From Labilibacter sediminis (GTDB lineage Bacteria; Bacteroidota; Bacteroidia; Bacteroidales; Marinilabiliaceae), in NCBI RefSeq assembly GCF_005877885.1, contig NZ_VCHY01000020.1, forward strand, positions 1 to 64,000: a stretch of 64,000 bases of DNA, read 5' to 3'. Shown piece after piece: positions 40,853-64,000 of the stretch. Every line of letters starts with the position of its first letter. Position 1 is the stretch's first letter. Position numbers and translations under genes: made by a program. The notes below the pieces were generated by a model that did no database searches, was not told the origin of the DNA, and saw only the letters and a list, made by a program, of their open reading frames with translations.

Positions 40853-40863
40853 TCTAACACCCC

Positions 40864-44401: not shown

Positions 44402-44460
44402 AGAGCAAGTTTGTGTTTTGGTCAGACCAAAACCTTGCTCTGCGAGGCAAAACATCCCGT
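44402..44460 (+). other. Candidate oriT: large palindrome upstream of mobilization genes
   Basis: GTTTTGGTC (44415-44423) and GACCAAAAC (44425-44433) form a perfect nine-base arm pair with a one-base centre. They are extended by AGAGCAAG (44402-44409) and CTTGCTCT (44434-44441), which pair after a five-base bulge. It lies between the ATPase and the MobC-like gene, the expected place for a nick region read by the adjacent relaxase. Confidence 0.7.
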
Positions 44461-44492
44461 TGGTCTCATTAATTATTAATTGAAAGAATAAT

Positions 44493-45753: not shown

Positions 45754-45774
45754 TTGACCTAAAAACACTTTATT

Positions 45775-46697: not shown

Positions 46698-48040
46698 TCA
46701 TGCAGCTTCTTCCAAAGTTTTCTGCAGGTGTTCAACTTTTTTCTTCAGATTGTTAAGTCGCCTTAGTTGACTATTTCTTTTCATACTTTGCAAAATTGTT
46801 TCATCATATTCCACTTGCCGTGTAACCATAGTATAAACTACTGAAGCTAATTTGTTCCCAGTTGCGATTGCTGCTGCTTTTCCTCCATTTTTGGCCCGCT
46901 GTATTCGATAGTAATCACCTAGTGGCCCTTTGCTTTTCCACAGACAACTTCCACACTTTCGAAAGATTAATCCAGCAGTATTTTTTCTGTTCAACATATG
47001 ACTACTTATTAACCTTCCGCCTGACTTTTTATTATTAGAGACAAGGTTGAGCCAGGATAGAAATTGTTTTCTGGTAGGCCACTTGCTAAAGTCACTTCCT
47101 ATTTCTGCCAGAATATTCATCCCGCTCAAACTATCAATACCATCAATCTGGGTTAAATCAACACCAAAATGTACTTTTAGGTAACTGTCCAAATCAAATT
47201 TAGGAGTATTCCTGTTTTTCTTTCTGGTAGATTTCTTTTCAATAACAACTTCCAGTCCTTGATTAATTTCACAGCTCCTTTCTTTTAGTGCTTTATGAAT
47301 CTTTTCATCACATTCCGAGATTTGTCTTTGAGTAAAATTATATGCATCATATGCTTGTTGGAGAGTAAAAATAAATTCTTCCCTCCAAGTTCCCTGTAAT
47401 GATTTTACAATCGTTTCTTTGCTTGCCCTGATACTTCGGTCTCGAAGTTCGGCTAATGTTTCAGCATCGTGTTCTCCCTGCAGTATAGCACCAACAATTG
47501 TCATTCCTGTTTTTCCGGCTATGTCCCGGATTACTTTATGGAGTTTTAAGTTCATTAACTCCATGGATTTTTGCATATGTTGGATATAGCGACTGGCCTG
47601 ACGGATTAAATTCTGACGATGCCTGCTATAGCAACGCAGCTTTCTGGTATAGTTGTCGGGTTGAAAGCTATTTGTAAGAAGCCCACAACTATGAAGCGTT
47701 TGTATCCACTCTGCATCGCTCATGTCCGTTTTTCTACCACTTACGTTTTTTACATACCTTGCATTTACAAGATATACTTCAAAGCCATAGTCTTCCAATA
47801 ATAAGAACAGGTTTAACCAATAAATACCAGTAGATTCCATTGCCACGGTTTTAATCTTACATTTTTGAAGCCACCTGGCAATTTGATGTAGGTCACAGGT
47901 GAATGCGGAAAAGCATTTTACATTCTCTTTGTCTCTTTCTGACGGAACAGCCACCCAATGTTCCGTACTGCCATGTCTATCCCTGCTGCATTTGGATTTA
48001 GCATAGGCATCTCAACAACGGTTTTCTTGGAACGTACCAT
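46698..48040 (-). pseudogene. IS110-family transposase, frameshifted near the N-terminus
   Basis: The intact part (46698-47954, up to 418 residues) carries the IS110 layout: VAMESTGIYWLNLF, then KTDMSDAEWI of the DEDD domain, and a C-terminal Tnp_IS116/110/902 domain (LTQIDGIDSLSGMNILAEIG) with the serine-containing region. The true start is the ATG at 48040 (MVRSKKTVVEM...NPNAAGIDM). Between GIDM and the expected GSTEHWVAVP one base is missing at about 47974 (ATGGC where ATGGGC would restore the frame). So the first catalytic Asp is out of frame and the gene is probably inactive, unless the base is a sequencing error. Confidence 0.88.
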
Positions 48041-48863: not shown

Positions 48864-49721
48864 CTATAACAGTTTTCGATATTGAGAAGGCGTTAATTTG
48901 GTAATTTTCTTAAACTGCTTATTAAAATGACTTAGATTATTAAATCCACTGTCAAATGCTACATCAAGAATACTCAGGTCGGGATTGCGAAGTAAATTAC
49001 AGGAAAGCTCAATCTTAATCTGGTTCAGGTATTCAAAAATTGTCATTCCCATCTGTGATTTAAAAAAGCGGCATAAGGAACCTTTTGCCATGCTCACCAG
49101 ATCAGCCATTTCATCTAAATCAATTTCTTCCCGATAATGGATCATCATATGTTCGTGTATATTCGCAATTCTTCGGTTTCCTGTGGTGAATCTCTTCTTT
49201 GCATATTCTTCGCTAACTAAAAGTTCAATGCTCGTGCTTCTTCCAATACAATCCAATATTTTATAGAAATGCATCATTTGCTGGAATTTTTCCATATAAG
49301 GCATTTCCAGCAGTAGTTCACTAACTTGGTTTAATGTTTGATCGTTAATTTTCATTCCCCGTTCTGCCAGCCGAAGAGCTTTCGAAACCGATTTAAATTC
49401 AGGTAAAGACAAAAGTTTGCCTGGAAGAACAGTCATGTCGAATCGAAGATATGCCGTTTCAAGATATCTGCCAGATGGGGATTCCATGTGTTTGTCAGCA
49501 AGCCATACATGCGGTAAGTTTTGGCCTATGAAGATCATATCGCCTGGAAAGAAGTTTTCTATTGAATCACCAATAATTCTTTTCCCAACACCTTCAAGAA
49601 TAAAATTTATTTCAAATCCATTGTGATAGTGCCAGGTACTTTTCTCCAGGGTATCCTGAAAAATACCTATAAAGAATGAACTATCTGTTTTTGAATTGCT
49701 TTGAAAAAGCTGACTACTCAT
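48864..49721 (-). CDS. AraC-family regulator with cupin-like N-terminus
   Basis: 285 residues. The N-terminal ~120 residues form a cupin-like sensor (STWHYHNGFEINFILEGVGKRIIGDSIENFFPGDMIFIG...LPHVW). The C-terminus has two HTH motifs (DLDEMADLVSMAKGSLCRFFKSQMG, SILDVAFDSGFNNLSHFNKQFKK). It is transcribed divergently from the corrinoid protein gene, 146 bases away, and is the obvious candidate regulator of the methyl-transfer genes. The effector is unknown; related cupin-AraC proteins bind small carbon compounds. Confidence 0.85.
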   Translation of the reverse strand: MSSQLFQSNSKTDSSFFIGIFQDTLEKSTWHYHNGFEINFILEGVGKRIIGDSIENFFPGDMIFIGQNLPHVWLADKHMESPSGRYLETAYLRFDMTVLPGKLLSLPEFKSVSKALRLAERGMKINDQTLNQVSELLLEMPYMEKFQQMMHFYKILDCIGRSTSIELLVSEEYAKKRFTTGNRRIANIHEHMMIHYREEIDLDEMADLVSMAKGSLCRFFKSQMGMTIFEYLNQIKIELSCNLLRNPDLSILDVAFDSGFNNLSHFNKQFKKITKLTPSQYRKLL

Positions 49722-49867
49722 TGTGATTTGTTTTTGTCAATATAAGTATTAAATGTGAATATAGCATTATTATTTGTAATAATTGGCCTAGTATTTAGTG
49801 AAAAACACCCATAATTTTACACTATGATTTAATTATAAAGGATTTATAAAACAATAGACTATCTGAC

Positions 49868-50536
49868 ATGAGTGAACTAATTAAAAAATTATCGGAGTGC
49901 GTAGAGTTTGGAAAGGTTGATAAAAATTCACCTTTTCCACCACAAATGAAAGGACAAGACGGTGCTTTCGAATTGACGGAACAAGCCTTGAAAGAGGGGA
50001 TTGACTCTCAGGCAATTCTTGAAGAAGCTTTAGTGCCTGCAATGGATCGTGTAGGTAAAAAGTTTTCTGAAAATAAAATTTTTGTACCTCAAATGTTAAT
50101 GTCGGCAAAAGCGATGGGAGCTGCAATGGTTGTGTTAAAACCGTACTTTATGTCCGGTGATATAAAAACCAAAGGAACATTTATTATTGGAACTGTTTTT
50201 GGCGATTTACATGATATTGGCAAGAACCTTGTTGCTATGATGATTGAAGGTAGTGGTTGGTCTGTGATTGACCTTGGGGTTGATGTTTCATCTGACAAAT
50301 TTGTTGAAACGATTAAAGAGAATCCTGGGGCTGTTGTTGGATTATCTGCTTTGCTTACAACAACAATGGTGAACATGGAAGAAGTAACCCAAGCAATTAA
50401 AGATGCTTCTCCTGAAACAAAAGTAACTATTGGTGGTGCTCCTGTAAATGACGACTTCTGTAAAAAGATTGGAGCCGATAATTACTCTCCCGATCCACAA
50501 GGTGTTGTGGAGTGGCTGAATAAGCTGGCAAGCTAA
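49868..50536 (+). CDS. mtaC: MtaC-like corrinoid protein
   Basis: 222 residues. A four-helix cap (residues 1-~95) precedes the B12-binding Rossmann domain with the DxHxxG motif at D113-H115-G118 (GDLHDIGKN), the SxL region (VVGLSALLTTT) and a GG motif (VTIGGAPVND). In the methanol and methylamine pathways this protein carries the methyl group on cobalt between two methyltransferases. Its gene lies upstream of the MtaB-like gene with the same orientation, as in mtaCB operons. It is complete. Confidence 0.88.
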   Translation: MSELIKKLSECVEFGKVDKNSPFPPQMKGQDGAFELTEQALKEGIDSQAILEEALVPAMDRVGKKFSENKIFVPQMLMSAKAMGAAMVVLKPYFMSGDIKTKGTFIIGTVFGDLHDIGKNLVAMMIEGSGWSVIDLGVDVSSDKFVETIKENPGAVVGLSALLTTTMVNMEEVTQAIKDASPETKVTIGGAPVNDDFCKKIGADNYSPDPQGVVEWLNKLAS

Positions 50537-50628
50537 AAATACAACTTTTTTATTCGTAGTGAATTAGCTGTTTTTAGAAATACAGAATGTGGTTAGTATG
50601 CCTTGGAATTATTAAAAAAGAAACTTAA

Positions 50629-52005
50629 ATGAAATATAATAAATTAGTAATTGATAAACCGGAAGACCTGATGTTTGGTATTGCACCAAATCCTGTGAAA
50701 ACCAGACGTGGTCTTGAGATTGGTGGGGGAGCTGTATATGCTGAATTGAATTTTACGCTCCCAACAATGAGTATTAATAAAGACACACTTACCCGTGTAA
50801 ATCAGCATTATAAAGAAATTGCAGAAGGTGCACTGGAACGAGCTTTGCATCTGAATTCAAAAGGCGTCGTTCTTGAGTTTGAAACGCTTCTTGAAATGAC
50901 CCAAACTCCTTCAATTGGAATTGAGCTGGTAAAAATCATGAATGAAGTTTGCGAGAAATATTACCAACAACATGGTTTAGCTTCTGAAATACGTCTTACC
51001 CCGAATGACCTTAGGGAATTTGAAAGGCCGGCATTGCAGCGCACATCCAGCCTGCTTGAGCCTATGATGGAGCTTTTTGAAGAAGGAATGCTTGCTGGTG
51101 GTGACTTGCTTTCAATTGAAAGTACCGGAGGGAAAGAAGTATCCGATGAAGCTTTGATGATGTGTGATATTAAAGGACTTATGTTTGCCCTTGCTGTTTT
51201 AGGTGTTCGTGATATGCAGTTTATTTGGAAAAAAATTAGTGCCCTCGCAAATAAGCACAATAAAATTGCAGCAGGGGACTCAGCTTGCGGTTTTGCCAAT
51301 ACAGCAATGGTTTTGGCTGAAAAGAAATACATTCCAACTGTATTTGCTGCGTTGGTCCGTGTAATTTCTGTTGTACGTTCAATCGTTGCAGTGGAAGAAG
51401 GAGCCATAGGACCAGAAAAAGATTGTGGTTACGAAGGGCCATTCTTAAAGGCGATTACCGGTATCCCAATTTCTATGGAGGGAAAAACTGCGGCTTGTGC
51501 ACACTTTAGCCCAATTGGCAACATTGCTTTTGCTTGTACTGACCTCTGGAGTAATGAGTCTGTTCAGAATATCAAGTTATTATCGGGAATGGCTCCAACA
51601 GCATATTTAGAACAGTTAGAGTATGATGTGCGTTTGTCGAATGAAGCATTAAGAATGGGGAAAACTCACAGCCAGATTCTGCAACAGTTGCTTGTAAACT
51701 CGGATGTGTACACTGATCCTCAGGCGTTAATTTTAGCTCCCGAGAATGTGATAAAAATTTCGAAATCATTAATTAAAGGAGATACATATATTGCCAATGC
51801 CAAGAATGGAGCATTAACTGCTCTTGATATAATAGAAGAGGCATACAATTCCGGGCAATTGAAACTTTCAGATATGGAAACTACTTATTTGCCAATTTTA
51901 CGAGTAGACTTGGAAAGTATACCAGATGATGAAAGCCAGTTTGTAGAAATGATGTTGCCCATGTTGGATCAGAGTAAGTTTATTCTTGCTGAATATGGTT
52001 TGTAG
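50629..52005 (+). CDS. mtaB: MtaB-like zinc methyltransferase (methanol:corrinoid type)
   Basis: 458 residues, the length of MtaB. Three residues equivalent to the zinc ligands of Methanosarcina MtaB sit in the expected places: Glu164 in LLSIESTGGKE, Cys220 in GDSACGFANT and Cys266 in GPEKDCGYEGP. It would take a methyl group from a methyl-oxygen donor such as methanol and pass it to Co(I) in the adjacent corrinoid protein. The substrate may differ from methanol. This family is best known from archaea and Firmicutes, so its presence in a Bacteroidete is notable. It is 92 bases after mtaC. Confidence 0.85.
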   Translation: MKYNKLVIDKPEDLMFGIAPNPVKTRRGLEIGGGAVYAELNFTLPTMSINKDTLTRVNQHYKEIAEGALERALHLNSKGVVLEFETLLEMTQTPSIGIELVKIMNEVCEKYYQQHGLASEIRLTPNDLREFERPALQRTSSLLEPMMELFEEGMLAGGDLLSIESTGGKEVSDEALMMCDIKGLMFALAVLGVRDMQFIWKKISALANKHNKIAAGDSACGFANTAMVLAEKKYIPTVFAALVRVISVVRSIVAVEEGAIGPEKDCGYEGPFLKAITGIPISMEGKTAACAHFSPIGNIAFACTDLWSNESVQNIKLLSGMAPTAYLEQLEYDVRLSNEALRMGKTHSQILQQLLVNSDVYTDPQALILAPENVIKISKSLIKGDTYIANAKNGALTALDIIEEAYNSGQLKLSDMETTYLPILRVDLESIPDDESQFVEMMLPMLDQSKFILAEYGL

Positions 52006-52063
52006 AGTTTTTAAAATCATTTAGTTAATCATTTGCTAAAGCTGCCTGGAGAAAGGTTTTTTA

Positions 52064-52975
52064 ATGGAGAAGATAAAAGTCAATATTATCACGGGATTTT
52101 TAGGTGCTGGGAAAACCACAACTATCTTAAATCTTTTGAAGAAAAAAGATAAGAACGAAAACTGGGCAGTAATAGTAAATGAGTTTGGAGAAATCTCAAT
52201 TGATACATTAACTCTGTCTGAGTCGACAGACTCGGGCAGGGTTTATGACATTTATGGTGGCTGTATTTGTTGTTCAGCCAAAGAATACTTTCATGAAAAC
52301 CTGAATAAGATCATTCAGGAAAAGAAATTTGACCGCATTGTTATTGAACCAACCGGTCTTGGTGGACCGGATATGGTTGCCGAAATCATTCTTTCAGTTC
52401 CTGAATTGGAGTTGATGCCTTCAATTTGTTTGGTTGATCCGGGTTATTTTGAGAATATGCGAATTCAAATGATCCCGTTGTTCCGAATTCAAATTCAGCG
52501 GGCTGATGTTGTCGTATTGAGCAAATGTGATTTAGTTGCTGACCAGCAAAAGTTGAAATCAATAATGAAAAACATCCAACAAATATTTCCGGGGAAATTA
52601 AGTTATTCTTTTTCAGTAAACGGTGATTTAGATATTGGGTTGCTGGATTCTGGTAAGCCAATTCAAAAAAGAGATGTATTGGGAATCAACCTTTCAACGA
52701 AAGAAGTGAAAAGCAAAACCTACACAATACCAAATTCAGAGATTGTTGATATTGAAGGATTACTTGATTATTTTAAAAATGAGGAAAGTATCATACGTGC
52801 AAAAGGATATGTTAAAGGAGCATCAGGATGGCGACTAATTAATTATACATTAACAGGTCAAAAAATAGAGGTCAGTTCGGATTTACATCAGGGAGTAATC
52901 ACTATTTTTACTGAATTCAAGGATGGCGATTCGTTCAACCGAATTGATCAGAGCATCCAGGATTGCAAGGTATAA
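52064..52975 (+). CDS. CobW-family GTPase, plus-strand copy
   Basis: 303 residues. The P-loop is GFLGAGKTTTILNLL, the metal motif GGCICCSAKEYF (CxCC complete), and the G3/G4 regions IEPTGLGGP and LSKCDLV. The CobW C-terminal domain is present but divergent. The family delivers Zn2+ or Co2+ to target enzymes. Since MtaB needs zinc, and corrinoids cobalt, this gene may metallate the adjacent proteins. It follows mtaB by 58 bases and is probably the last gene of the mtaCB-cobW operon. Confidence 0.87.
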   Translation: MEKIKVNIITGFLGAGKTTTILNLLKKKDKNENWAVIVNEFGEISIDTLTLSESTDSGRVYDIYGGCICCSAKEYFHENLNKIIQEKKFDRIVIEPTGLGGPDMVAEIILSVPELELMPSICLVDPGYFENMRIQMIPLFRIQIQRADVVVLSKCDLVADQQKLKSIMKNIQQIFPGKLSYSFSVNGDLDIGLLDSGKPIQKRDVLGINLSTKEVKSKTYTIPNSEIVDIEGLLDYFKNEESIIRAKGYVKGASGWRLINYTLTGQKIEVSSDLHQGVITIFTEFKDGDSFNRIDQSIQDCKV

Positions 52976-53173
52976 ATTGATATTGGCCAAATGAAGAAGT
53001 ATGAAATTAGGCTGAATCCACTTGGGATAGTTCTTGTCCTATAAGTTGCAATCTAATCTTGTGTAACGATTTGAAGCTGCTGCTCACCGCGTCACTCACT
53101 CAAATTTGTTTTGAAGTTAAAACTGCTCTTTTGTATTTGGATAGAATTTTTTGCTTTCTTGTAGAATTTTGAT

Positions 53174-55438
53174 TTAGAACTCATCAAAGGCAATCATCTT
53201 GTCAGATACACCCAGTTTCTTCAACATTCCCATTGATGCTTTTATCATCGCAGGAGGACCACATAAGTAGAACTCGATCTCTTTGATATTCTCATGTTTT
53301 GAAAGGTATTCATTCAAAAGATACTCATGAATAAAACCTACTTCCCCATCCCACTTATCATCTTTGGCTGGTTCGGAAAGTGCAACATTGACTGAAAAAT
53401 TCGAATGTTCCTTTTCAAACTTCTCAAAATAATCTTCATAAAATAAATCATTCAAAGATCTTGCTCCATACCAAAAGCTTACTTTTCTGTTTGTTTTTTG
53501 TGTCTCAAACAAATAGGATAAATGAGATCGGATAGGAGCCATTCCTGCTCCACCTCCAAGGTAAACCATCTCACGATCCGTATTTTTAATCAGAAAGTCA
53601 CCAAAAGGACCAGTAAGTTTTACTTGTTCACCTTCTTTCAGGTTAAATACATATGAAGAACCGACACCTGCAGTAATTGAGTTGGTATCTGGAGATAATG
53701 CAATGCGGATATTGAACTTCAAATTTGAATCTTTTGCCGGATTAGTTGCCAATGAATAATTTCGTTTGGAATAAATGGTATTTTCAGACCATGAATCAAA
53801 CAATTTTTCATCTTCCCATGCTTTATGATAAGGTTTATCTATTTTAAAATCAGAAAAGCTGGTTTTATGTGGGGGTATGGACAGATGAATATATTGTCCG
53901 GGCTGATACGAAATTGCATCGCCATTAACAGCTTCAAGCTCCAATTCTTTTATAAATATTCCAACGTTTTTATTGCTAACAACCTTAAATGACTTCTTCA
54001 ACTCTTCATCTTTCCCTTGAACTTCTTTTAAATCCAGGTAAACAATGTCATTAATAATCTCAACTTTGAATGTGTTAATACCAACACAAACAGGTATTCG
54101 TTTTGGAGAACCGTCTTTTAAATCGAAGCGGCCATTATGTTTGGGACATTCAATAATATCACCAATAACAACACCTTCTGCCAAGTGGGCATTTCCATGG
54201 GTGCAAATTCCATCGGTTGCATAAAAACGATCACTATTTGTTTTGTACAACGCGTAAGTTTTCTGTTCAAAATCAAAGCGAATCACATCTCCTTTTGGCA
54301 ATTCATTAAAATGACAAATTTCAATTTTGCCATTAACAAGCTTTCCAGTTCGTACTTCTACATTAGATACTCTAGAACTTCCTACAGTACCGGCTCCTTT
54401 AGGTAATTCCCTGTCAACATAGAATGATGGATCTTTCACCTGTTTCAAAATTGTAGGGATAATTTCCTTATATGTTTCAATAATACCGTTGTATGGGGGA
54501 GGACAATCGTCTTTCATTAAATCATGCAGACTGGGCAGGGCATGGTAAGGTACCAATGGAAACATGTGGTGCTCCACATGATAGTTCATGTTCCAGTATA
54601 AAAACCGATTAATACGATTCATATAAACCGTACGGCAGTTCAAGCGATGATCCAGTACGTTTTCCCGTAACCCTGCGTGCTGTGTAAGGCTGTAAATGGG
54701 TCCTAGCCAGGTCCCTATTAAAGTGGGTATGCCGAAAAGAAAGAAAGGCATAACGGTCTGATGAAATACTGCCAAGAAAATAACTGTAGAAATAATCAAT
54801 ACATAAACACGGGCTTTGAAGAAGACCTTCCCGTATTCTGATTCAGGAACGTAATTGGCCACTTCCTTATCGATTTTCCCAATGGCATGTTTAAACAAAC
54901 GCTTACCTTCAGCTTTTGCCTGAGCAATGCCAAAGAAACCAAGAATGATCATTCTAATATCGGGAGGTGTCGGCACCGCAATTTCCGGATCACGTCCCCG
55001 GATGATGGTATCGCTGTGGTGGCGAGCATGGCTCCAACGCCAGACGGTCGATTGGCGGAGTACCATGAATGATGATATTTCATAAAGCAGGTTGTTCATC
55101 CAATCTGACTTAAATGCCGTTCCGTGGCTTGATTCATGCCATCGGGAATCGGCCCCAGTGGCAAACAACACACTGTAAATGAGTATCGGAAAGATAACAT
55201 ACCATGCTCCCCAAAACAGATAAATCAAGTAACCTGATGCGAAAATCAGACCAAACCAAATAATGGTATCACGGATGGCAGGGTAATTCTTCCTGGTCAA
55301 CAATTCGCGCATCTGTTCTCTAGGGACCGGCGATTGATACCATTCAGCATCGGCCAAACCCATTTCTAACGCTTTTTGGGCTTCAACACCGATTAAGCTA
55401 TAGTCTCTCATCATTTGTACTTCTTCTTTTGTAGGCAT
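53174..55438 (-). CDS. Fatty-acid-desaturase-type di-iron oxygenase fused to Rieske and NqrF-like reductase
   Basis: About 754 residues from the ATG at 55438 (MPTKEEVQ); the 73 extra residues to 55657 overlap the upstream TIM-barrel gene and are rejected. Residues ~50-300 form a membrane di-iron domain with histidine boxes HESSH (101-105), HARHH (137-141) and HVEHH (287-291). A Rieske domain follows with C412/H414 and C431/H434. The rest (~480-754) is a ferredoxin-NAD(P)H reductase like NqrF with GGGAGMAPIRS and a terminal AFDEF. This is a self-sufficient oxygenase or desaturase that needs only NAD(P)H and O2. The substrate is unknown. Confidence 0.85.
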   Translation of the reverse strand: MPTKEEVQMMRDYSLIGVEAQKALEMGLADAEWYQSPVPREQMRELLTRKNYPAIRDTIIWFGLIFASGYLIYLFWGAWYVIFPILIYSVLFATGADSRWHESSHGTAFKSDWMNNLLYEISSFMVLRQSTVWRWSHARHHSDTIIRGRDPEIAVPTPPDIRMIILGFFGIAQAKAEGKRLFKHAIGKIDKEVANYVPESEYGKVFFKARVYVLIISTVIFLAVFHQTVMPFFLFGIPTLIGTWLGPIYSLTQHAGLRENVLDHRLNCRTVYMNRINRFLYWNMNYHVEHHMFPLVPYHALPSLHDLMKDDCPPPYNGIIETYKEIIPTILKQVKDPSFYVDRELPKGAGTVGSSRVSNVEVRTGKLVNGKIEICHFNELPKGDVIRFDFEQKTYALYKTNSDRFYATDGICTHGNAHLAEGVVIGDIIECPKHNGRFDLKDGSPKRIPVCVGINTFKVEIINDIVYLDLKEVQGKDEELKKSFKVVSNKNVGIFIKELELEAVNGDAISYQPGQYIHLSIPPHKTSFSDFKIDKPYHKAWEDEKLFDSWSENTIYSKRNYSLATNPAKDSNLKFNIRIALSPDTNSITAGVGSSYVFNLKEGEQVKLTGPFGDFLIKNTDREMVYLGGGAGMAPIRSHLSYLFETQKTNRKVSFWYGARSLNDLFYEDYFEKFEKEHSNFSVNVALSEPAKDDKWDGEVGFIHEYLLNEYLSKHENIKEIEFYLCGPPAMIKASMGMLKKLGVSDKMIAFDEF

Positions 55439-55449
55439 TTTTCGTTTTT

Positions 55450-56262
55450 TTAATCTAATTCTTTCTTTAAAAAATCCTTCATAAACACATTCACGTCCCA
55501 TTGGCTTGTAATAGGTTGCTGAGAGAATGGCAGAATAGTCATGTACGGATAAGGTCCAAATTCTGGGGTGATAGTAAAAACTTCTTTTTCCTCTCTTTTT
55601 TTTAGGGAAATGATCTTTTTCCACCAGCTCAGATGGATTTGAAGAGCCTCTTCCCATTCAGGGACGCGGGGATCAGGGACTTGCGGCCCTTCCGGGAAAC
55701 CTACCCGGGCATGGATGTGGTCTGCCCTTGATATAGCAAGTTCAACAGTATCCGTTTGGTCATGCAAGAATGTTTCGGCTACATTGCACCAATGCGAAAC
55801 ATCAAAACCAATACGCAAATCGGGTAGTTCCTTCAGATAGCTAGCCATTATATGGGCTGCAAAACTAAACTTTCCCCGGTGGGTTTCGTGGATGATCTTT
55901 ACATCATGTTTTTGCGAAACTTCATCAGCAATGGCAATCAATTCTGAATTCTGTTTGAATGTAAAATAATCCTTCCCTGTTTGTGTATTGACGAACAAAG
56001 GATTTGCAGTTGCCAGATTTTCAAGCCTTTTTCTAAACTCGGCTTTGTGTTTCTGAAAGTTGTCCGTCATGGTTTCCCAATGTTGGGCAATTAACGAAAG
56101 GCCATGCTGTTTTATCAAACTAGTTATTTTATTCTTCTCTGTTTTATCAAGCGGTAGACTCATTTCAACACCATCGTAGCCAGCATCTTTCACTTTTTGA
56201 AAAAATACTTCATTTTCCAAATGTTCGGATCCCCATAAGGGACAAAGAAACTCAATTTTCAT
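55450..56262 (-). CDS. Sugar phosphate isomerase/epimerase-like TIM barrel
   Basis: 270 residues of the xylose-isomerase-like AP_endonuc_2 fold. It opens MKIEFLCPLWGSEH and has metal-binding acids and histidines typical of the fold (VEMSLP, IIHETHRGKF, IGFDVSHWCNV, HARVGFPEGP, TPEFGPYPY). It could isomerise or hydrolyse a sugar or sugar acid. It is 12 bases ahead of the oxygenase fusion and about 100 bases downstream of the ferredoxin reductase, in the same operon. Its presence hints that the substrate is a carbohydrate derivative. Confidence 0.8.
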   Translation of the reverse strand: MKIEFLCPLWGSEHLENEVFFQKVKDAGYDGVEMSLPLDKTEKNKITSLIKQHGLSLIAQHWETMTDNFQKHKAEFRKRLENLATANPLFVNTQTGKDYFTFKQNSELIAIADEVSQKHDVKIIHETHRGKFSFAAHIMASYLKELPDLRIGFDVSHWCNVAETFLHDQTDTVELAISRADHIHARVGFPEGPQVPDPRVPEWEEALQIHLSWWKKIISLKKREEKEVFTITPEFGPYPYMTILPFSQQPITSQWDVNVFMKDFLKKELD

Positions 56263-56360
56263 AATTTTACGATTTATAATTTTAAGGGGAAACCTGGAGA
56301 AAGTGCCCTCTTAAAAATCAATTATTTAATAGCTCCTAACCTTTGATATTTTAGTTGACT

Positions 56361-57617
56361 TTACATGAATTTCAAATTGGTTGGCTTAAGTTCCACATCG
56401 GGATCTCTTAATTTTGATTTATCCAAAGGAGTATTTTCTTTAATAAATTTGGTCCCAATTACATAAGCTTTCATGTCATTTACAGCTTGAACGGCAAGTA
56501 ACTTGTTGTCTTGAAAATACCATATTGAAAACTTCTTTTTATTGTTGTTTTCTTGACGAATTATTATATCATTAGCTCCTTCCGACAAACCAATAATTTG
56601 TAATTTGACATCGTATTGATCAGACCAAAACCAAGGAATTGAATGGTTAGAAACTTCTTGTTTACAAATTACGGATGCTGCAATTTCAGCCTGATCATTG
56701 GCATTTTGAATTGATTCTAGACGAACATAACGCCTATAAAAAGAATGGTATTGAAATGCACAGTCTCCAATTGCAAAAACATTTTTATCAATGGTTCTTG
56801 CTTCATCATTAACAACAACTCCATTTTTTACTTCTAAGCCCGTCTCTTCCGCTAATTCTTTATTCGCATGAATTCCTATTCCAACGATAATTAAATCAGC
56901 GAAATAACTTGAACCATCTGAACAAATCACTTCTTTATCACTACTATTTGATCGTACTTCAATCACCTCTTTATTGGTAAAGATCTCAACACCATTTCGT
57001 TTGTGCAGAAATTCATAGAAATTGGATAAGTGAGGTGCGGTTACTCGCGATAAAACTCTTTCTTCTTTTTCAAGGACTGTAACATTTGCCTTTAATTTAA
57101 TTAATGAGGCAGCGGTTTCAAGACCAATATATCCGGCGCCAATTATTAAAGCCCGACGTTTCTCACTTTTATCCAAGGTATTTCGTATTGCAATGGTATC
57201 TCGGGATGTACGAATTGTAAAAATTGATTCCGAATTTTTTAATCCTGGTATATTGGGAATTATCGGTCGACCACCCATCGCTAAAACTAGTATATCGTAT
57301 TTATAGAAACTACCATTATCCAAAAATATTTGTTTGGAAATTCTATCAATGGATGTTACCTTATGTCCTAATTTCAACGTAATATTCTCTTTTTTATAGA
57401 GGTGGATGGGTTTAAGGGCGTGGTCGCCCAAAGATTCTGAGCCAATCAATACTGACTTGGACAGTGGAGGTCGATAATAAGGTAATTCAGGATCCATATC
57501 AAATAATGTGATATCCCCCTTCCATCCTTTTTCACGTAAGGCAAAGGCTATGCTAACACCGGCCTGATTTGCACCAATGATAACGCATGAATTTAAATGT
57601 GAATTTTTCGCTCCCAT
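56361..57617 (-). CDS. Ferredoxin reductase (putidaredoxin/rhodocoxin-reductase-like)
   Basis: 418 residues. FAD-binding CVIIGANQAGVSIAFALRE at the N-terminus, NAD-binding RALIIGAGYIGLETAASL (about 155), and the VFAIGDCAFQYHSFY FAD contact (about 290). The C-terminal domain is of the reductase type. It passes electrons from NADH to the [2Fe-2S] ferredoxin encoded 14 bases upstream and on to the P450. Confidence 0.92.
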   Translation of the reverse strand: MGAKNSHLNSCVIIGANQAGVSIAFALREKGWKGDITLFDMDPELPYYRPPLSKSVLIGSESLGDHALKPIHLYKKENITLKLGHKVTSIDRISKQIFLDNGSFYKYDILVLAMGGRPIIPNIPGLKNSESIFTIRTSRDTIAIRNTLDKSEKRRALIIGAGYIGLETAASLIKLKANVTVLEKEERVLSRVTAPHLSNFYEFLHKRNGVEIFTNKEVIEVRSNSSDKEVICSDGSSYFADLIIVGIGIHANKELAEETGLEVKNGVVVNDEARTIDKNVFAIGDCAFQYHSFYRRYVRLESIQNANDQAEIAASVICKQEVSNHSIPWFWSDQYDVKLQIIGLSEGANDIIIRQENNNKKKFSIWYFQDNKLLAVQAVNDMKAYVIGTKFIKENTPLDKSKLRDPDVELKPTNLKFM

Positions 57618-57631
57618 CTTAGAATTTCTAA

Positions 57632-57946
57632 TTAATCTCGTTCTGCTACTTTCAATTCAATTCCATCTAAATCGTCTGATATCTGAATTTGGCAACATAA
57701 ACGACTGTATTCGTTAGAATGATCGTTAAGTTCTAGTAAGTCTTTTTCAAATTCACTGGCTTCTCCTGCTTTATCCATATGTTCCGGGTTAACGTGAACG
57801 TGACACGTTGCGCAAGAACAAACACCACCACATTCTCCGTCAATACCTTTTACTCCATTATCTTTAGCTAATTTCATCAATGACCCGGAATTGCCTTCTA
57901 ATGTAATTTTCTTATTATCCAGTGTTACATAATTTATTTTTGCCAT
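57632..57946 (-). CDS. Putidaredoxin-type [2Fe-2S] ferredoxin
   Basis: 104 residues. The cluster ligands C39, C45 and C48 (GECGGVCSCATCHVHV) and the final cysteine in SRLCCQIQIS match the spacing of putidaredoxin/adrenodoxin. It shuttles electrons between the reductase and the P450. It lies between the two in the same operon. Confidence 0.95.
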   Translation of the reverse strand: MAKINYVTLDNKKITLEGNSGSLMKLAKDNGVKGIDGECGGVCSCATCHVHVNPEHMDKAGEASEFEKDLLELNDHSNEYSRLCCQIQISDDLDGIELKVAERD

Positions 57947-58018
57947 TTCTTTAAGATTTTAAAATTAATTTTTGATAGACTTCTCTTTTATGTGTTCATG
58001 CTCGATTTCTGAAACTAT

Positions 58019-59176
58019 TTATCTTTTTGAAAATCTTACTTTTAGTTTCTGGAACCCTACTTTGCGTTTGATAGAATCAAGATTTTCAATGTTCTCAATG
58101 CAATCTAAAATTTCCATTGATTGAACTTTATTAACCAGTATTTCCAGCAATATCTTCATTATTGTACGTGCATGTGTTGCTCCCAAACAATTATGAACTC
58201 CAAATCCAAAACCTACATGCGGATTTATTTTTCGGTCAAGAATAATTTCGTTTGGATTCTCAAACACTGTAGCATCACGATTTGCGGATGCCCAGCATAG
58301 AGAAACCCGTGTGTCCTTTTTAGCGTTATGGCCACAAACTCTACTATCATGGGTGACAACTCTTCCCATTTGTGTCAATGGTGTAAAATATCTGATAAGT
58401 TCTTCAATTGCTGTTTCAATAATTTCCGGTTCGTTTCGTAATCTTTCAATCGATTCACGATAATCGGCTAAATAAGCTATTGTATTAGTTACCATATTTA
58501 TTACAGTATCTCTACCTCCTGCAAAAGTTAAAACCATCACACCTTTAACTTCTTCTTCAGTTAATTTTCTTCCTTCGAATTCTGAATTCAGTAGCACAGA
58601 ATAAAGATCTTCTACAGGATTTTCTTTTGCCTCAGCAATTTTTTTATCTAAATAATCATAGAGAATATTGGCTTTACTACCATCCAAAGGATCATCTTCG
58701 CTGCGAAATACATGTGTTCCCCACGAAATCCAAGTTTCAGCTTCTTCGAAAGGAGTATTTAATAATACAGTCAATGCACGAGACTGTAACGGTAAAGAGA
58801 AATCGTGAACAACTTCAACTTCACCTTTGGATATAGTTTCATCAATTAAATTATCAATAATTGATTTAAGTTTATTCTGATATTCTGGTTCCCTTGGACG
58901 TTTAAACCACGGTTCTACTATACTTCTATAGTCTTTGTGTTGTGGGGGATCAACTTCAAAAGGAATTTGACGAATGTCACGAATATTTACTTCTGATGGT
59001 ACGACAATTCGTCCGGGTTCTGCGCCCGATTGAAAGGTTTTCCAGTTGTGAGCTGTTTTGCGGACATCTTTATGTCTTAAGATCATTGTAACTGGGTCAT
59101 CTTGATCGTTCATTTCAGTATGTCCTTTTTCAGTTCTTATCACCTCAAAAGGATCTTGAAAAGTACTTTTTTTCAT
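58019..59176 (-). CDS. Cytochrome P450 (class I system)
   Basis: 385 residues from the ATG at 59176 (MKKSTFQDP); the upstream in-frame start at 59254 adds a 26-residue tail without features. The I-helix has AGGRDT, the ExxR motif is EELIR, and the heme loop GFGFGVHNCLGATHAR places the thiolate at Cys330. With the ferredoxin and reductase it forms a complete three-part system. N-terminal similarity (NWKTFQSGAEPGRIVVPSEV) recalls Bacteroidetes P450s reported to O-demethylate 6-O-methyl-D-galactose, but this is from memory only. The product of such demethylation would be formaldehyde. Confidence 0.92.
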   Translation of the reverse strand: MKKSTFQDPFEVIRTEKGHTEMNDQDDPVTMILRHKDVRKTAHNWKTFQSGAEPGRIVVPSEVNIRDIRQIPFEVDPPQHKDYRSIVEPWFKRPREPEYQNKLKSIIDNLIDETISKGEVEVVHDFSLPLQSRALTVLLNTPFEEAETWISWGTHVFRSEDDPLDGSKANILYDYLDKKIAEAKENPVEDLYSVLLNSEFEGRKLTEEEVKGVMVLTFAGGRDTVINMVTNTIAYLADYRESIERLRNEPEIIETAIEELIRYFTPLTQMGRVVTHDSRVCGHNAKKDTRVSLCWASANRDATVFENPNEIILDRKINPHVGFGFGVHNCLGATHARTIMKILLEILVNKVQSMEILDCIENIENLDSIKRKVGFQKLKVRFSKR

Positions 59177-59284
59177 AATTTTTATCTTTATTGTTATTTT
59201 TATTAACCCTTCTGTAAAACATATTTCATTTATTTTGCTCCACCCACAACCCAACTTACATATAATTCTTAAAGCGACTATTTG

Positions 59285-60802
59285 TTAAGTAGTGTTAAAC
59301 TGGATAGAATTAAAATACATATTCATTGCAAATTCAAGTTCAAATTCCGGGTGAGTTGAAAGCTCAATAAGCTGAGACCTTTTAATTACTTCGTACATAA
59401 GGTCCATAAACTTGTAGTTAATTACATGAAGTTTTGCTCCCGAGCCAGATGTATTGCCCACCGGGATGATATTATTCTTTAGTTCAAAAGGCATAAGTCC
59501 TATTTTTAATGCGTTGATTGGATCCATGAAATTGCCAAAACCACCAGCTAAGAAAACAGCATCAATGTCATCATAAGTCAAACCAGCCTTTTTTATTAAA
59601 ATATTTATTCCAGTACAAATTGCACTTTTGGCTAATTGTACTTCTCTTATATCCTGTGGAGTTATTACGATATCCTTTCCTGTGCCAGAATCATTTTGCG
59701 AAGCAACAACAAAATCATTTATTAGGTTTCCATCTGATGATATTATTTCATTTTCCAATGAGTACGCTATTATGTCAATTAATCCTGATCCACAAATGCC
59801 CACTGGTTTTGTGTCTCCAATTGTTTTATAGCCATTCTTATCAAAAGCTGATATGGCGCCATCAAAAGCACCCATACCACAAAAAATATTGGCACCCTCA
59901 AAGGCTGGACCTGCAGCTGTTGCGCAACAATAAATATTATCTGGAGTAACCAATGCCATCTCTCCATTTGTGCCTATATCAATAAAAAGGTATATTTTTA
60001 TATTCTCATCTGGTACAAGTGAAGCGATTCCTGCTACGATATCAGAACCAACATAAGCGGAAATGGAAGGTAATAAGTAGACATCTCCATCCTGGTGGAT
60101 ATTAATACTTAAGTTTTTAGCTTTGTAATGTTGAGTATCTGTAAATGAGGCTTTAAATGGAGCTAAAGCAATTGGTGTTGGATTAATTCCTGCCAATAAA
60201 TGTAACATTGTAGTATTAGCAGTCACAGATACTTTTACTATTGATTTATTGGAAATTTTTTCGTTTTCAACGAAGTCTTCAACTTGAAAGTTGATTGCTT
60301 CAATAATCTTTTGTTGTAATATTGAAACAGCATTCTTATTCGAACAGAAATTAATTCGACTAATTACATCCGCTCCATATTTAACTTGTGGATTACTAAT
60401 CCCAATATTTTTAATCATATTTCCGTTGGACAAATCGATCCAGTACAGAACTATACTCGTTGTTCCTATATCAATGGCTAAACCAACCGGGGAATCTGAG
60501 TTCAATGCAAGTGTTGAAGGCAATAATGGGAGATTAAGTGTGTAGATAGACTGATGGGTGAGAACAAGTGCCTCAGATTTTGTCGGTAAAAATACCTCCA
60601 GATTATCAGTTGGGATATATGTACAGGAGTTGACAAATCCTTTATTCTTTACTTTTACTTTACATTTGCCACATGTTCCATTACCTCCACAAGGAGCAGA
60701 AACTATTAAATCTTCAGCTTGAATTATCTGCAACAAGCTTAAACCCGTTTCATACCTTTTTGCAATTATTTGACCATTATCATGTATAATTAGTTTCGGC
60801 AT
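59285..60802 (-). CDS. RACo-type reductive activator of corrinoid proteins
   Basis: 505 residues. An N-terminal [2Fe-2S] domain with C38, C44, C47 and C60 (SAPCGGNGTCGKCKV) is followed by a linker and an ASKHA-type ATPase domain (DUF4445-like), with VGLAIDIGTTSIVLYWIDL and GFGNFMDPINA blocks. It uses ATP and an electron donor to bring inactive Co(II) back to Co(I). The short form fits RACo of acetogens. The missing linker length relative to RACo (~630) means it is a compact variant. Confidence 0.88.
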   Translation of the reverse strand: MPKLIIHDNGQIIAKRYETGLSLLQIIQAEDLIVSAPCGGNGTCGKCKVKVKNKGFVNSCTYIPTDNLEVFLPTKSEALVLTHQSIYTLNLPLLPSTLALNSDSPVGLAIDIGTTSIVLYWIDLSNGNMIKNIGISNPQVKYGADVISRINFCSNKNAVSILQQKIIEAINFQVEDFVENEKISNKSIVKVSVTANTTMLHLLAGINPTPIALAPFKASFTDTQHYKAKNLSINIHQDGDVYLLPSISAYVGSDIVAGIASLVPDENIKIYLFIDIGTNGEMALVTPDNIYCCATAAGPAFEGANIFCGMGAFDGAISAFDKNGYKTIGDTKPVGICGSGLIDIIAYSLENEIISSDGNLINDFVVASQNDSGTGKDIVITPQDIREVQLAKSAICTGINILIKKAGLTYDDIDAVFLAGGFGNFMDPINALKIGLMPFELKNNIIPVGNTSGSGAKLHVINYKFMDLMYEVIKRSQLIELSTHPEFELEFAMNMYFNSIQFNTT

Positions 60803-60823
60803 GATGTGTTATTTTTGAAGTAA

Positions 60824-61525
60824 TTATTTTTTTCTATAAATACAATTCCCGCTATTGCAATTATCACAAACATGATTGTGAAATTTTACACTGTCTCCAA
60901 TACCCATAATTCCACTTACTGACTTAATAGGTGACATCAAGCTAGATTCACACAGATGGACATTACAGAAATTATTTGGGAAAAATGTAAATAATCCTTT
61001 CTGTTCTTGTACATTCCATTCGCAGTAACCAGGACTATATCTATTGGTTATAATTATGCCATGTTTCTTCAATGATTTTTGAACTGATTCATGAATCTTG
61101 TCCATAGCTTTCTCCACGATTACAGATCCCAAAAGGTCTAATAAATATCCTTCTATTAATTTTCCTGTATTTGTATGTTCTTTAGCTCTTTGTGTGATTT
61201 CATTTCCCGCGGTACACACAAAAACAGCTGCATGAGTCATTCCTTTTAAGAAATGCACCACTTGTTCTCCTGCAAAAAACACTTTATCCTTTAAGAAGAT
61301 TTTATCTTTTTGTGCTCTACCTTCAATAATAATTAATCCTCCTTCAATGTTAGCGGTATCTTCTAATATGCTCATTTCCCGATCTAAAAAGCCTTTATAT
61401 GATTGGATTTCTCCAATTTTAGCTAATTCAAGGAGATGCCCAATTGAAATGCCTAATTCATTTGGACTGAATCGATAGTGCATTAAAGGATTAAGATCCA
61501 ATAATTCTGATAACTGCTTATTCAT
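60824..61525 (-). CDS. Stand-alone B12-dependent methionine-synthase activation-domain protein
   Basis: 233 residues matching the activation (AdoMet-binding) domain of MetH: LIGSVIVEKAMDKI-like stretch, NRYSPGYCEWNVQEQKGLF (the RxSPGY region) and a C-terminal CDNCNSGNCIYRKK. In MetH this domain methylates the cobalamin with AdoMet for reactivation. A detached copy beside a RACo gene suggests a second way to rescue or load the corrinoid protein. It is 21 bases upstream of the RACo gene. The C-terminal Cys trio may bind a metal cluster. Confidence 0.78.
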   Translation of the reverse strand: MNKQLSELLDLNPLMHYRFSPNELGISIGHLLELAKIGEIQSYKGFLDREMSILEDTANIEGGLIIIEGRAQKDKIFLKDKVFFAGEQVVHFLKGMTHAAVFVCTAGNEITQRAKEHTNTGKLIEGYLLDLLGSVIVEKAMDKIHESVQKSLKKHGIIITNRYSPGYCEWNVQEQKGLFTFFPNNFCNVHLCESSLMSPIKSVSGIMGIGDSVKFHNHVCDNCNSGNCIYRKK

Positions 61526-61529
61526 ATCG

Positions 61530-62045
61530 TCAGGAAGTTTTTGTGCTACTACAACACGAGCTTTGTTTTGTATTGAATAACTGTTTGGAAATTTCGGTTA
61601 TAAAACACCAGTTGTAATAACCTGCAAAAGAAGCTAACAAAATCAGCAATAATACTGGAGTATAAGCTGCGACTAAATTATCCTGTACAATTTGATAAGC
61701 GGCATTTAGGAATATAAAACTACCTAAAGCACATCCAATCTTCCTGTGTTTGCTATGTTTAGGAACCTGCCCCCATTTTAGAAATCCCGAGAATATATAT
61801 TTGTAAAGTAAATCGTAGAAACTTAAAGAGCTAAATACCCCAATTAGCATCAAAATGGATAGGCTCATGAAATAATAAACTGAGCCAGTGAATAATCCTA
61901 TTGTACTAAAAAACATACAAGCAAAAGGAGTAAACCTGGTAAGCCATCTTGATTTTGGATTAGCACTAATTTCTATTTCCAGATAACCTTGATCGATTAA
62001 TCTATCTAATTCTTTATCCTCTTTCATTTTATTTGTACTAAGCAA
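61530..62045 (-). CDS. DUF4395-type membrane protein
   Basis: About 171 residues with four hydrophobic segments, opening with a soluble stretch that contains NPKSRWLTRFTPFACMFFS. The DUF4395 layout (loop with P-K-H, then helices 3 and 4) fits. It ends in a Cys-rich tail (SSCCSSTKTS). It overlaps the CobW gene by 8 bases at its start and lies 4 bases before the activation-domain gene. The function is unknown; in a corrinoid operon it may handle a membrane-bound component or thiol. Confidence 0.65.
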   Translation of the reverse strand: MLSTNKMKEDKELDRLIDQGYLEIEISANPKSRWLTRFTPFACMFFSTIGLFTGSVYYFMSLSILMLIGVFSSLSFYDLLYKYIFSGFLKWGQVPKHSKHRKIGCALGSFIFLNAAYQIVQDNLVAAYTPVLLLILLASFAGYYNWCFITEISKQLFNTKQSSCCSSTKTS

Positions 62046-62949
62046 TTCTTTCCTTAAATTTTTTCCTCAAATCGGTAATGTTAATGTCATACCCAAATAC
62101 AATCAACTCGGAAGGACCTATATGTTTTTTAACTTCCTTGATCTCAAGGCGATTAAAAACACTATGAACCGAAACCTTTTTTCCATTCGTAAGATTTAAA
62201 AATCCCTTAATCCTAGGACAATTCTTTTGCATACCCTTAATGAAACTCTTTAAGCAATGTTCACTAATTTTATCATGTGTTCTTAATACGCATGTTTTGA
62301 TGTCGGGTTGACCGCCAGCTAACCTGCCAGTAAATCGCTTAGACGCTGCTCCTTTTATGGAGAGATTTACCTCAAAATCAGCCCAATATATTTGAGCATA
62401 GGTTGTAGGTAGTATTTCTGCAAAAGGATTTAGCTCCTTCAGCTTTTCTTCAATAGCTGTTAAATGTCCTTCAAACAGATCTGTTTTATTTATAATAATC
62501 TTGTCGGCCACCATAATCTGATGCTTAAATCGAACAAGAGAAGAGAGACCTTTGAAAAAATTGGGAGCATCAACCAAACAAATACTTTTATCAAGCGCAA
62601 CTTTATCTTTAAGCTCTTCTGTTTGCAATAATTCAACAATGCTAATGGGATCAGCCAAACCCGAAGCTTCAAGAAAAATGATGTCAGGCTTATAATCTTC
62701 AATAAGTTTTAGCAAATTCTGAACAAAATTACTCAACTGACAAACACAAAAAACAGAACCATTATTGATTTCAACCAACTTAAAATCATCATTCAAGCGG
62801 CTTAGTTCCTTCCCGTCGATACCCGATGCAGCAAACTCATTTTGTATAACTGCAATACGATTTTTTGCTGATAATTCTTCAAGTAAATTTCCCAACAGAG
62901 TTGTTTTACCACTACCTAAAAAACCGGTTATAAGATTAAATTGTATCAT
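62038..62949 (-). CDS. CobW-family GTPase, minus-strand copy with reduced Cys motif
   Basis: 303 residues. The P-loop is GFLGSGKTTLLGNLL, but the CxCC metal motif is reduced to VFCVCQLS (CxC then Q). EASGLADP and INKTDLF are the other G motifs. It differs from the copy at 52064 and probably prefers a different metal or client. It is the second gene in the visible part of the minus-strand operon, following the UroD-thioredoxin fusion by about 70 bases. Confidence 0.86.
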   Translation of the reverse strand: MIQFNLITGFLGSGKTTLLGNLLEELSAKNRIAVIQNEFAASGIDGKELSRLNDDFKLVEINNGSVFCVCQLSNFVQNLLKLIEDYKPDIIFLEASGLADPISIVELLQTEELKDKVALDKSICLVDAPNFFKGLSSLVRFKHQIMVADKIIINKTDLFEGHLTAIEEKLKELNPFAEILPTTYAQIYWADFEVNLSIKGAASKRFTGRLAGGQPDIKTCVLRTHDKISEHCLKSFIKGMQKNCPRIKGFLNLTNGKKVSVHSVFNRLEIKEVKKHIGPSELIVFGYDINITDLRKKFKERIA

Positions 62950-63022
62950 TTATTATTTAAAAGATAACATAAAGCAGTCAACAAAATTACTGTTGACTGC
63001 CTATTGCTTTCCCAGCACTTTT

Positions 63023-64000
63023 TTAATTCTTAAAAGTCAAATATCCTTCAATTTTAGATTTAATTTCGCTTATGGGTGGAATTTGCGAAATAAAGTCAAT
63101 ATTACCATCTATTACAATAGTGGGTAAATTTTGAACACCCAGCGAAGCCATCATTTGCACACCTTCCATCTCTTTTATGCGGTGTTCTTTGTACACTACT
63201 TTATCACCAAAGGGTTCAGCAGCACGTGCAACAGCGTCAACCATATACTGGCATGGTGCACATGATGAAGAATCAAGCGTTATGATATCGATAATTACTT
63301 TTTCATTATCCCAGTGCCCGGCAAGATCCAATAACTCCACTTCCATTCCTTTTGCTTCTGAAGCCCGCAACTCTCCCTGAAGAATTTCATCATGTACCAA
63401 TTCTGAAACAGCTACAATATTCTCTACAGGTGTATCCATTGCTAAATCGCAACCCGGTGCTAGGATAAATCCTTTCTTACCTCCAATATCCATACATTCC
63501 AAAGCATCTCTTCGCGAAGCATCTTCATCACCCATGAGTAATACAACTGTAAGTTTAATATTTCCACCAAAAGAGACATTATGCTTAAGTGCCATGTCTC
63601 GTACAAAATCCAACGGAATATTTTCGTCAATCGAAAGGTTATCAGGACCTGTTTTACACATAACTTCAATATTTTGTTGCGCATTTCCACAAACGAAGAA
63701 TGAACTCAAGGCATCACACTCGCGCACAAAATCAAATACTTCCTTTACATAAGGAGAAACAAATGTTTCAAAGCTCATCGGATCTATCTGACTGGTCATT
63801 GGATCAACCACAGCAATAACATCTGCTCCGGCCTCAATATAATTGCCTGCCATTATTTTAGCCACATCTGTGGTAAAGCGCATTAGCTTATGCACTTCAT
63901 CGGGCTCGGTCATCATTTGCATAAATATGTCAGTACCTAAGAGGTGTAAGGCTAAAGTAAAAGGACCTGTTATTAAACCATACAAAGCCATGTCGGGATG
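63023..64000 (-). CDS. UroD/MtbA-like methylcobamide methyltransferase fused to thioredoxin, 5' end beyond window
   Basis: The visible part has about 325 residues and the frame stays open to the right edge (HPD before MALYG), so the gene is cut off. The first ~235 residues are the C-terminal half of a UroD-like barrel: GPFTLALHLLGTDIFMQ, SIDENIPLDFV and LAPGCDLAMDTPVENI. The Zn-site Cys of the second motif is present (VCGN), but the usual His two residues earlier is Phe (FFVCGN). A thioredoxin-like domain with SSSCAPC follows (about 245-325). It should move the methyl group from the corrinoid protein to an acceptor such as CoM or a folate. Confidence 0.83.
   Translation of the reverse strand, partial: HPDMALYGLITGPFTLALHLLGTDIFMQMMTEPDEVHKLMRFTTDVAKIMAGNYIEAGADVIAVVDPMTSQIDPMSFETFVSPYVKEVFDFVRECDALSSFFVCGNAQQNIEVMCKTGPDNLSIDENIPLDFVRDMALKHNVSFGGNIKLTVVLLMGDEDASRRDALECMDIGGKKGFILAPGCDLAMDTPVENIVAVSELVHDEILQGELRASEAKGMEVELLDLAGHWDNEKVIIDIITLDSSSCAPCQYMVDAVARAAEPFGDKVVYKEHRIKEMEGVQMMASLGVQNLPTIVIDGNIDFISQIPPISEIKSKIEGYLTFKN

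Follow-up and report, generated by a model that had tools for sequence, protein, structure and literature searches.

The stretch examined here, positions 1-64000 of contig NZ_VCHY01000020.1 (C111; 122,820 bases) of Labilibacter sediminis (genome G000, a draft of 6.36 Mb in 372 contigs), is called the window below and ends in a group of genes for corrinoid (B12)-dependent methyl transfer that directly adjoins two oxygenase systems (Table 1). B12 methyl-transfer systems of the MtaB/MtaC kind normally work without oxygen. Families were called with Pfam and NCBIfam profiles, which recovered each of the gene classes named in the initial annotation, i.e. MtaB, MtaC, a reductive activator of corrinoid proteins (RACo), UroD, B12-activation, a P450 system and a desaturase/Rieske oxygenase. 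Given the profile E-values the main family calls are not due to chance, while a DUF4395-like and a thioredoxin-like call lie below their cut-offs.

A plus-strand set of MtaC1, MtaB and CobWa, with a divergent AraC-type regulator (AraCa), faces a run of eleven minus-strand genes, in the order MtaC2, UroD1trx, CobWb, DUF4395-like protein, B12-activation protein, RACo, P450, ferredoxin, ferredoxin reductase, TIM-barrel protein and fused oxygenase. With corrected starts for the P450 and the oxygenase, the gaps within this run are 287, 73, -8, 4, 21, 108, 72, 14, 98 and 8 bp; on this strand the genes for corrinoid activation precede the P450, 108 bp separating RACo from P450. The locus runs past the window to about contig position 96.7 kb, and the part beyond the window is a polysaccharide utilisation locus (PUL) with a susC/susD pair (PF07715, PF07980, PF14322), glycoside hydrolases (two of PF10091, two GH2, GH3 and GH35) and a sulfatase. 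Two further UroD-family genes sit among these glycoside hydrolases, UroD3 overlapping the preceding gene by 8 bp and UroD2 lying 11 bp before a GH2 gene. No tRNA genes or Rfam families were found in the window.

Table 1. Genes of the island, numbered from the first base of the contig, which is also the first base of the window
Feature	Position	Strand	Evidence
AraCa, AraC-type regulator of mtaCB module	48864..49721	-	PF12833 E 3e-22
MtaC1, corrinoid carrier	49868..50536	+	PF02310, PF02607; DxHxxG motif; 70% to MtaC2
MtaB, methanol:corrinoid methyltransferase family	50629..52005	+	PF12176 E 7e-160; 2i2x_A E 2e-91
CobWa, CobW-type GTPase/metallochaperone	52064..52975	+	PF02492 E 2e-41
Fused MocD-like FA_desaturase, MocE-like Rieske and NqrF-like reductase	53174..55657	-	PF00487, PF00355, PF00175
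TIM-barrel sugar isomerase-like protein	55450..56262	-	PF01261 E 1e-8
Ferredoxin reductase of P450 system	56361..57617	-	PF07992, PF14759
2Fe-2S ferredoxin of P450 system	57632..57946	-	PF00111
Cytochrome P450, 6G5O type	58019..59254 (true start near 59176)	-	PF00067
RACo-type reductive activator of corrinoid proteins	59285..60802	-	PF14574 E 2e-70, PF17651 E 8e-52
Stand-alone B12 activation-domain protein, MetH-activation type	60824..61525	-	PF02965 E 5e-8, 33 bits vs cut-off 25
DUF4395-like protein (weak)	61530..62045	-	PF14340 22.8 bits, below cut-off 24.5
CobWb, second CobW-type protein	62038..62949	-	PF02492 E 5e-41
UroD1trx, UroD family with CxxC thioredoxin-like domain	63023..64408 (cut by the window at 64000)	-	PF01208 E 1e-63
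MtaC2, second corrinoid carrier	64696-65364	-	
AraCb, second AraC	65470-66327		
Reg_prop/Y_Y_Y propeller-type regulator	66556-69414		
SusC	69989-73030		
SusD	73043-74545		
PF10091 glycosidase	74774-77161		matches include endo-beta-1,2-glucanase 5gzh
UroD2	77296-78324		
GH2	78336-81407		
Second PF10091 glycosidase	82321-83745		
UroD3	83738-84733		
GH3	84772-87015		
Sugar transporter	87029-88462		
Second GH2	88745-92407		
GH35	92466-94856		
Sulfatase	95214-96698		

Corrinoid and oxygenase proteins

MtaB matches PF12176 over nearly its whole length (533 bits, cut-off 25) and stays below the NCBIfam methanol equivalog cut-off (421.8 vs 720 bits). The middle and ASKHA domains of RACo (PF14574, PF17651) exceed their cut-offs and identify the protein; its N-terminal 2Fe-2S domain falls just short of the Fer2 cut-off (19.7 vs 21), and the cysteine motif CGGNGTCGKC is present. 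The genome holds five UroD-family matches: the three in the locus, one on contig C311, and a 345-aa frame on C45 that is probably HemE-like, judging by its score. All three members in the locus score below the NCBIfam mtaA_cmuA cut-off (122-168 vs 235.4 bits). UroD2 retains the His-Cys-Cys zinc site in alignment with MtaA (4ay7), and in UroD3 the site can be read from the motifs LHICG and AGC. UroD1trx, by contrast, lacks the MtaA-type site, Phe replacing the zinc His in 5/5 aligned rows (the window's protein and four orthologues). Its thioredoxin-like domain reaches 23.8 bits against a PF13192 cut-off of 24.8, and its predicted model (pLDDT 81, with the loop bearing the last Cys poorly predicted) has MtaA 4ay7 as the closest solved fold.

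Four PF02607 matches occur in the genome: MtaC1, MtaC2, a MetH-like frame and a MerR-type regulator. By this family only the first three are corrinoid carriers, and UroD2 and UroD3, if they are corrinoid enzymes, must therefore use MtaC1 or MtaC2. The regulator, presumably CarH-like, carries its B12-binding_2 match at G000:C311:273100-276306 (L004) and is unlinked to the locus. A genome search for the pterin-binding family returned two frames, the MetH-like one (1247 aa) and one of 316 aa, FolP-like to judge from its size, and did not find the usual tetrahydrofolate (THF) methyltransferase partner. The C-terminal part of a CobW has been left as a remnant between MtaC2 and UroD1trx (contig 64409-64695, i.e. 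2409-2695 of the follow-on segment L005; best E 2e-8). Since a CobW gene follows MtaB in many relatives, a second mtaB-cobW copy was probably lost at this site.

The P450 aligns without a gap over 383 residues to 6g5o/6g5q (637 bits, E 1e-190), which we take to be the Zobellia 6-O-methyl-galactose demethylase; its true start is residue 27 of the listed frame. It is 70-73% identical to the P450s of two congeners (G379 and G436), which have the P450 triad too, and 74% identical to that of a genome from another family (G042), while its ferredoxin and reductase are 56-69% and 44-54% identical to those beside seven P450 homologues. About 9 kb from the P450 of Catenovulum there is a gene annotated as a methionine-synthase-type methyltransferase, which matched no Pfam family. 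As stated in a passage of PMC10033563 that cites Reisky 2018, the P450 of Zobellia and Formosa converts, with ferredoxin and reductase, 6-O-methyl-D-galactose to galactose and formaldehyde; another, citing Brott 2022, reports genes of the ribulose monophosphate (RuMP) pathway to be upregulated on porphyran in Zobellia. The RuMP pathway was considered as a formaldehyde sink here and rejected, the genome containing no HxlA over the model cut-off and one partial match of 30 bits.

The second oxygenase is a single chain that carries the His boxes HESSH, HARHH and HVEHH and a Rieske motif. MocDEF removes the 3-O-methyl group of rhizopine, and the oxygenase part of the fusion is 49-53% identical to three plasmid MocD-type proteins, its Rieske part 48% identical to one MocE but below the MocE-family cut-off of TIGR02377 (107.9 vs 136.15 bits). 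Instead of a separate MocF-type FAD reductase, an NqrF-like reductase is fused. The listed frame overlaps the TIM-barrel gene and similarity to MocD starts at about residue 84, so the true start probably lies some 72 codons downstream, near 55441. A plasmid search with the first 545 residues gave 275 matching records at E 1e-20, of which 229 are from Rhizobium or Sinorhizobium, and among the annotated matches listed these residues span 'fatty acid desaturase' and 'MocE family' genes. In each of the three plasmid contexts viewed, mocDE is followed by a gene for an FAD reductase. Acidiphilium has a TIM-barrel gene after mocDEF (24% identity to the island's protein), Rhizobium has one upstream in the opposite orientation, and purU and folD are close to mocDE in an Agrobacterium plasmid context, as would be expected if formaldehyde is released. 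A passage of PMC10107442 assigns mocDEF and mocC to the catabolism of rhizopine (3-O-methyl-scyllo-inosamine). Among 295 genomes of the class the fusion has a full-length match in G000 only (E 1e-60, a threshold that a weaker unfused MocD would escape); 100 match the fusion query, and those listed outside G000 begin at residue 532 or later, in the reductase part. By these alignments both the P450 and the fused oxygenase resemble O-demethylases, which suggests that the island concerns methylated compounds.

A candidate island for methylated glycans

We tentatively read the island as an acquired PUL for an O-methylated glycan, in which oxygen-dependent demethylases and a corrinoid methyl-transfer chain would act on a common substrate. 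Gained by horizontal transfer, it would serve a glycan that probably contains galactose and sulfate. In the presence of oxygen, the P450, served by its ferredoxin and reductase, would free a released hexose of a 6-O-methyl group, and the fused MocD/MocE-like oxygenase would cleave methyl ethers of a second kind; both reactions would yield formaldehyde. With little oxygen, the corrinoid chain would take methyl groups that come from this glycan too: RACo, the B12-activation protein and the CobW proteins would keep MtaC1 and MtaC2 active as Co(I), MtaB would load the carrier from methanol or from a methyl-ether sugar, and the UroD-family proteins would hand the methyl group onward to a presumed final acceptor. 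Such a scheme supposes that the modules are transcribed in common and switched by oxygen.

That the corrinoid and oxygenase modules are linked is the better bet, given the same-strand continuity of RACo and P450 and the position of UroD2 and UroD3 among the glycoside hydrolases, where MtaC1 and MtaC2 would serve them if they are corrinoid-dependent. A separate case, locus L095 (Bacteroidales bin.687), also favours the link: MtaC, B12-activation protein, MtaB, two CobWs and an orthologue of UroD1trx lie there on one strand (2-15933), between GH3, GH2 and GH39-like (with CBM6) genes and GH43 in a one-strand run. The likeness of both oxygenases to O-demethylases speaks for the link as well. The initial annotation had proposed a dual demethylation locus, with oxygen-dependent cleavage and corrinoid capture serving one methylated substrate. 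The presence of both chemistries, the O-demethylase-like character of the oxygenases, the corrinoid activation genes on the P450 strand and the UroDs among glycoside hydrolases agree with this, whereas action on one common substrate is a supposition, MtaB having methanol-type zinc ligands and mtaCB an AraC of its own. A bolder version, in which the corrinoid chain itself O-demethylates the same O-methyl sugars as the P450 and the MocDE-like oxygenase and the UroDs are the missing anaerobic sugar O-demethylases, seems unlikely to us.

O-methyl groups are an obstacle to sugar catabolism, and a passage of PMC12316285 treats the anaerobic demethylation of galactose as unsolved. The island puts corrinoid methyl-transfer genes on the strand of a 6G5O-type P450 and UroD-family genes between glycoside hydrolases. 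It supplies named candidate genes for anaerobic sugar demethylation, and UroD genes in glycan loci offer a search handle for other anaerobes; if the bolder version is true, oxygen-dependent and oxygen-independent demethylation of methylated glycans would be united in one island. The matches listed from the open-licence PMC literature contain, in the passages retrieved, no description of such a gene set.

Distribution and alternative readings

In the tallies that follow G000 itself is counted. The P450 was found in 3 of 393 genomes of the order and 4 of 71 of the family (E 1e-60) and, at E 1e-100, in 4 of 295 of the class; UroD1trx (E 1e-40) was found in one of 395 class genomes. MtaB (E 1e-30) occurs in 15 of the 393 order genomes, and of these only G000 and G042 have both MtaB and P450. 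In G042 the two lie on different draft contigs, and that of the P450 ends about 4 kb away from the P450 genes, so that linkage is possible. Two of the three order genomes with the P450 thus have MtaB, but one of them is the genome in which the island was ascertained and no significance is claimed.

The best 80 of 427 confirmed MtaB matches were taken with their neighbourhoods (full 10 kb flanks in 22; median length 15.7 kb) and their genes labelled by best BLASTP match (E 1e-6), giving MtaC-type genes in 61, AraCa in 32, RACo in 31, CobWa in 25 and B12 activation in 22; glycan genes near MtaB were counted without a background control, and no enrichment is claimed. No MtaB was found on plasmids at E 1e-40. 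In L112, L100 and L114 a regulator that combines GntR and Peripla_BP_3 domains stands ahead of mtaC or mtaB (GntR just below its cut-off in L112). Orthologues of UroD1trx (at least 56%) were labelled in 5 of the 80 loci, L095, L104 (partial), L106, L112 and L119. Members of this UroD-thioredoxin subfamily without the zinc His, 58-68% to the window's protein, lie in MtaB clusters of Bacteroidales-type metagenome-assembled genomes (MAGs): L112 9579-10946, L119 2282-3652, L095 13470-14822 and L039 10624-12243. In L057 (1206-7061) a UroD2 orthologue (61%) sits directly 3' of a GH38 gene, near a gene of the GlcNAc 2-epimerase family. Nine MAGs with like-styled bin names (L078, L082-L088 and L091), named as Tannerella, Tannerellaceae, Prevotellaceae or Dysgonamonadaceae, have MtaBs 75-77% identical, and in six of them a UroD-family protein of 417-430 aa is encoded close to MtaB.

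Several of our results weigh against the proposed O-methylated glycan island. Neither P450, ferredoxin, reductase, fusion nor TIM-barrel protein was found by BLASTP in any of the 80 MtaB loci, and no corrinoid gene, by similarity to the window's proteins, near any of nine other P450s (seven genomic neighbourhoods of 15-46 kb and two plasmid ones of 25 kb each), although all nine have the ferredoxin/reductase pair beside the P450. A tblastn repeat, independent of gene calling, upheld the absence of P450, ferredoxin, reductase and fusion from all 80 loci and that of corrinoid genes on the P450 side. This comes close to the outcome that the initial annotation had named as speaking against it, namely that the two sets never co-occur, and makes the corrinoid-oxygenase linkage a lineage-specific join: in the genomes sampled the juxtaposition of corrinoid genes and P450 is lineage-specific. 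MtaB is found in one of the 71 family genomes, and its zinc ligands Glu-Cys-Cys, presumably Glu164, Cys220 and Cys269, are aligned and identical to those of 2i2x_A, i.e. of the methanol type. An AraC of its own goes with the mtaCB set and recurs with mtaCB elsewhere: AraCa groups with the AraCs of such loci (94% to that of L046, in which genes at 6344-10452 first taken for a hydrogenase are ilvN/ilvB/ilvD-type by Pfam). On the P450 side, AraCb was tried as an orthologue of the AraCs found beside other P450s, since a first tree grouped it with four of them, and was given up when a search of its own genome with one of these ranked it third and a tree with its own paralogues did not support the grouping. 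A hairpin between UroD1trx and CobWb means that the eleven-gene run may be two transcripts, and promoter and terminator scan counts were at or below chance. No porphyranase-type family was found among the glycosidases scanned, which thus do not give the identity of the glycan.

Much of this would be expected if two unrelated modules had been joined by horizontal transfer, a methanol corrinoid module beside a methyl-sugar locus with neither substrate nor regulation in common. A full corrinoid set without P450 exists in L112 (in the order mtaC-mtaB-uroDtrx-cobW-B12 activation-raco), the CobW remnant fits a lost second mtaB, and mobile DNA lies close by, with an HTH_17 protein, a tyrosine integrase, a MobA/VirD2-type relaxase and an IS110 transposase at 40202-47954. 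A further integrase-family gene is found at about contig 97.9 kb, and contig 39.5-49.0 kb and 90-122 kb have no exact repeats of at least 15 bp in common. A join of this kind is a serious possibility, if a somewhat doubtful one, in view of RACo and P450 as close same-strand neighbours, of two UroDs interleaved with glycoside hydrolases and of the corrinoid genes within the glycoside hydrolase run of L095.

The cues to the substrate of the corrinoid chain diverge as well: MtaB would suggest methanol, the place of UroD2 and UroD3 in the locus sugars, and their zinc sites thiols, since a passage of PMC10418091 ties His-Cys-Cys sites to sulfur or selenium rather than oxygen substrates. Under that rule the UroD-type proteins might belong to the metabolism of methyl-sulfur or methyl-selenium compounds, a function proposed for type 1 mlp clusters, with only MtaB handling carbon substrates, and the CxxC thioredoxin-like domain of UroD1trx would suit such a role. 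We consider this rather improbable, as UroD1trx is without the zinc His, and UroD2 and UroD3 lie in a glycoside hydrolase run whose scanned proteins included no recognisable product of a sulfur or selenium gene.

Finally, the absence of MtaB from the other 70 family genomes and the state of the assembly could be taken to mean that the junction is a chimera of two organisms. RACo and P450 lie 108 bp apart on one contig, and neither 48864-64000 nor the follow-on segments L005 and L006, extending to contig position 102000, contain a single N. The G+C content in 2 kb bins runs on without a step across the RACo-P450 junction, and the congeners share the P450 triad; a chimera is thus hardly credible.

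Comparison with known systems

Several described systems come close to parts of the island. The methanol system of MtaB/MtaC with RACo has the same families and zinc ligands, whereas the island adds a UroD-thioredoxin fusion, scores below the NCBIfam equivalog cut-offs and comes with no pterin-binding-family methyltransferase in the genome besides the MetH-like and 316-aa frames. With the type 1 mlp clusters, as described in the passages of PMC10418091, it shares several UroDs, a corrinoid protein, a reductive activator and the lack of a THF methylase in the cluster, but only the island has MtaB, oxygenases and glycoside hydrolases, and one of its UroDs is without the zinc His. The Zobellia/Formosa P450 system has the same three-gene order, and some homologues have agarase-type or sulfatase genes nearby; here corrinoid genes adjoin, and a porphyranase-type family is absent from the scanned proteins. 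MocD and MocE of the MocDEF system are homologous to the fused oxygenase at 48-53% and a TIM-barrel gene adjoins it here, but the enzyme is a single polypeptide in which an NqrF-like domain takes over from the separate FAD reductase, and its setting is a Bacteroidota PUL. Like other PULs of Bacteroidota, the island encodes SusC/SusD, glycoside hydrolases, a sugar transporter, a sulfatase and a propeller-type regulator; it differs from them in encoding corrinoid-type methyltransferases and two O-demethylase-like oxygenases as well.

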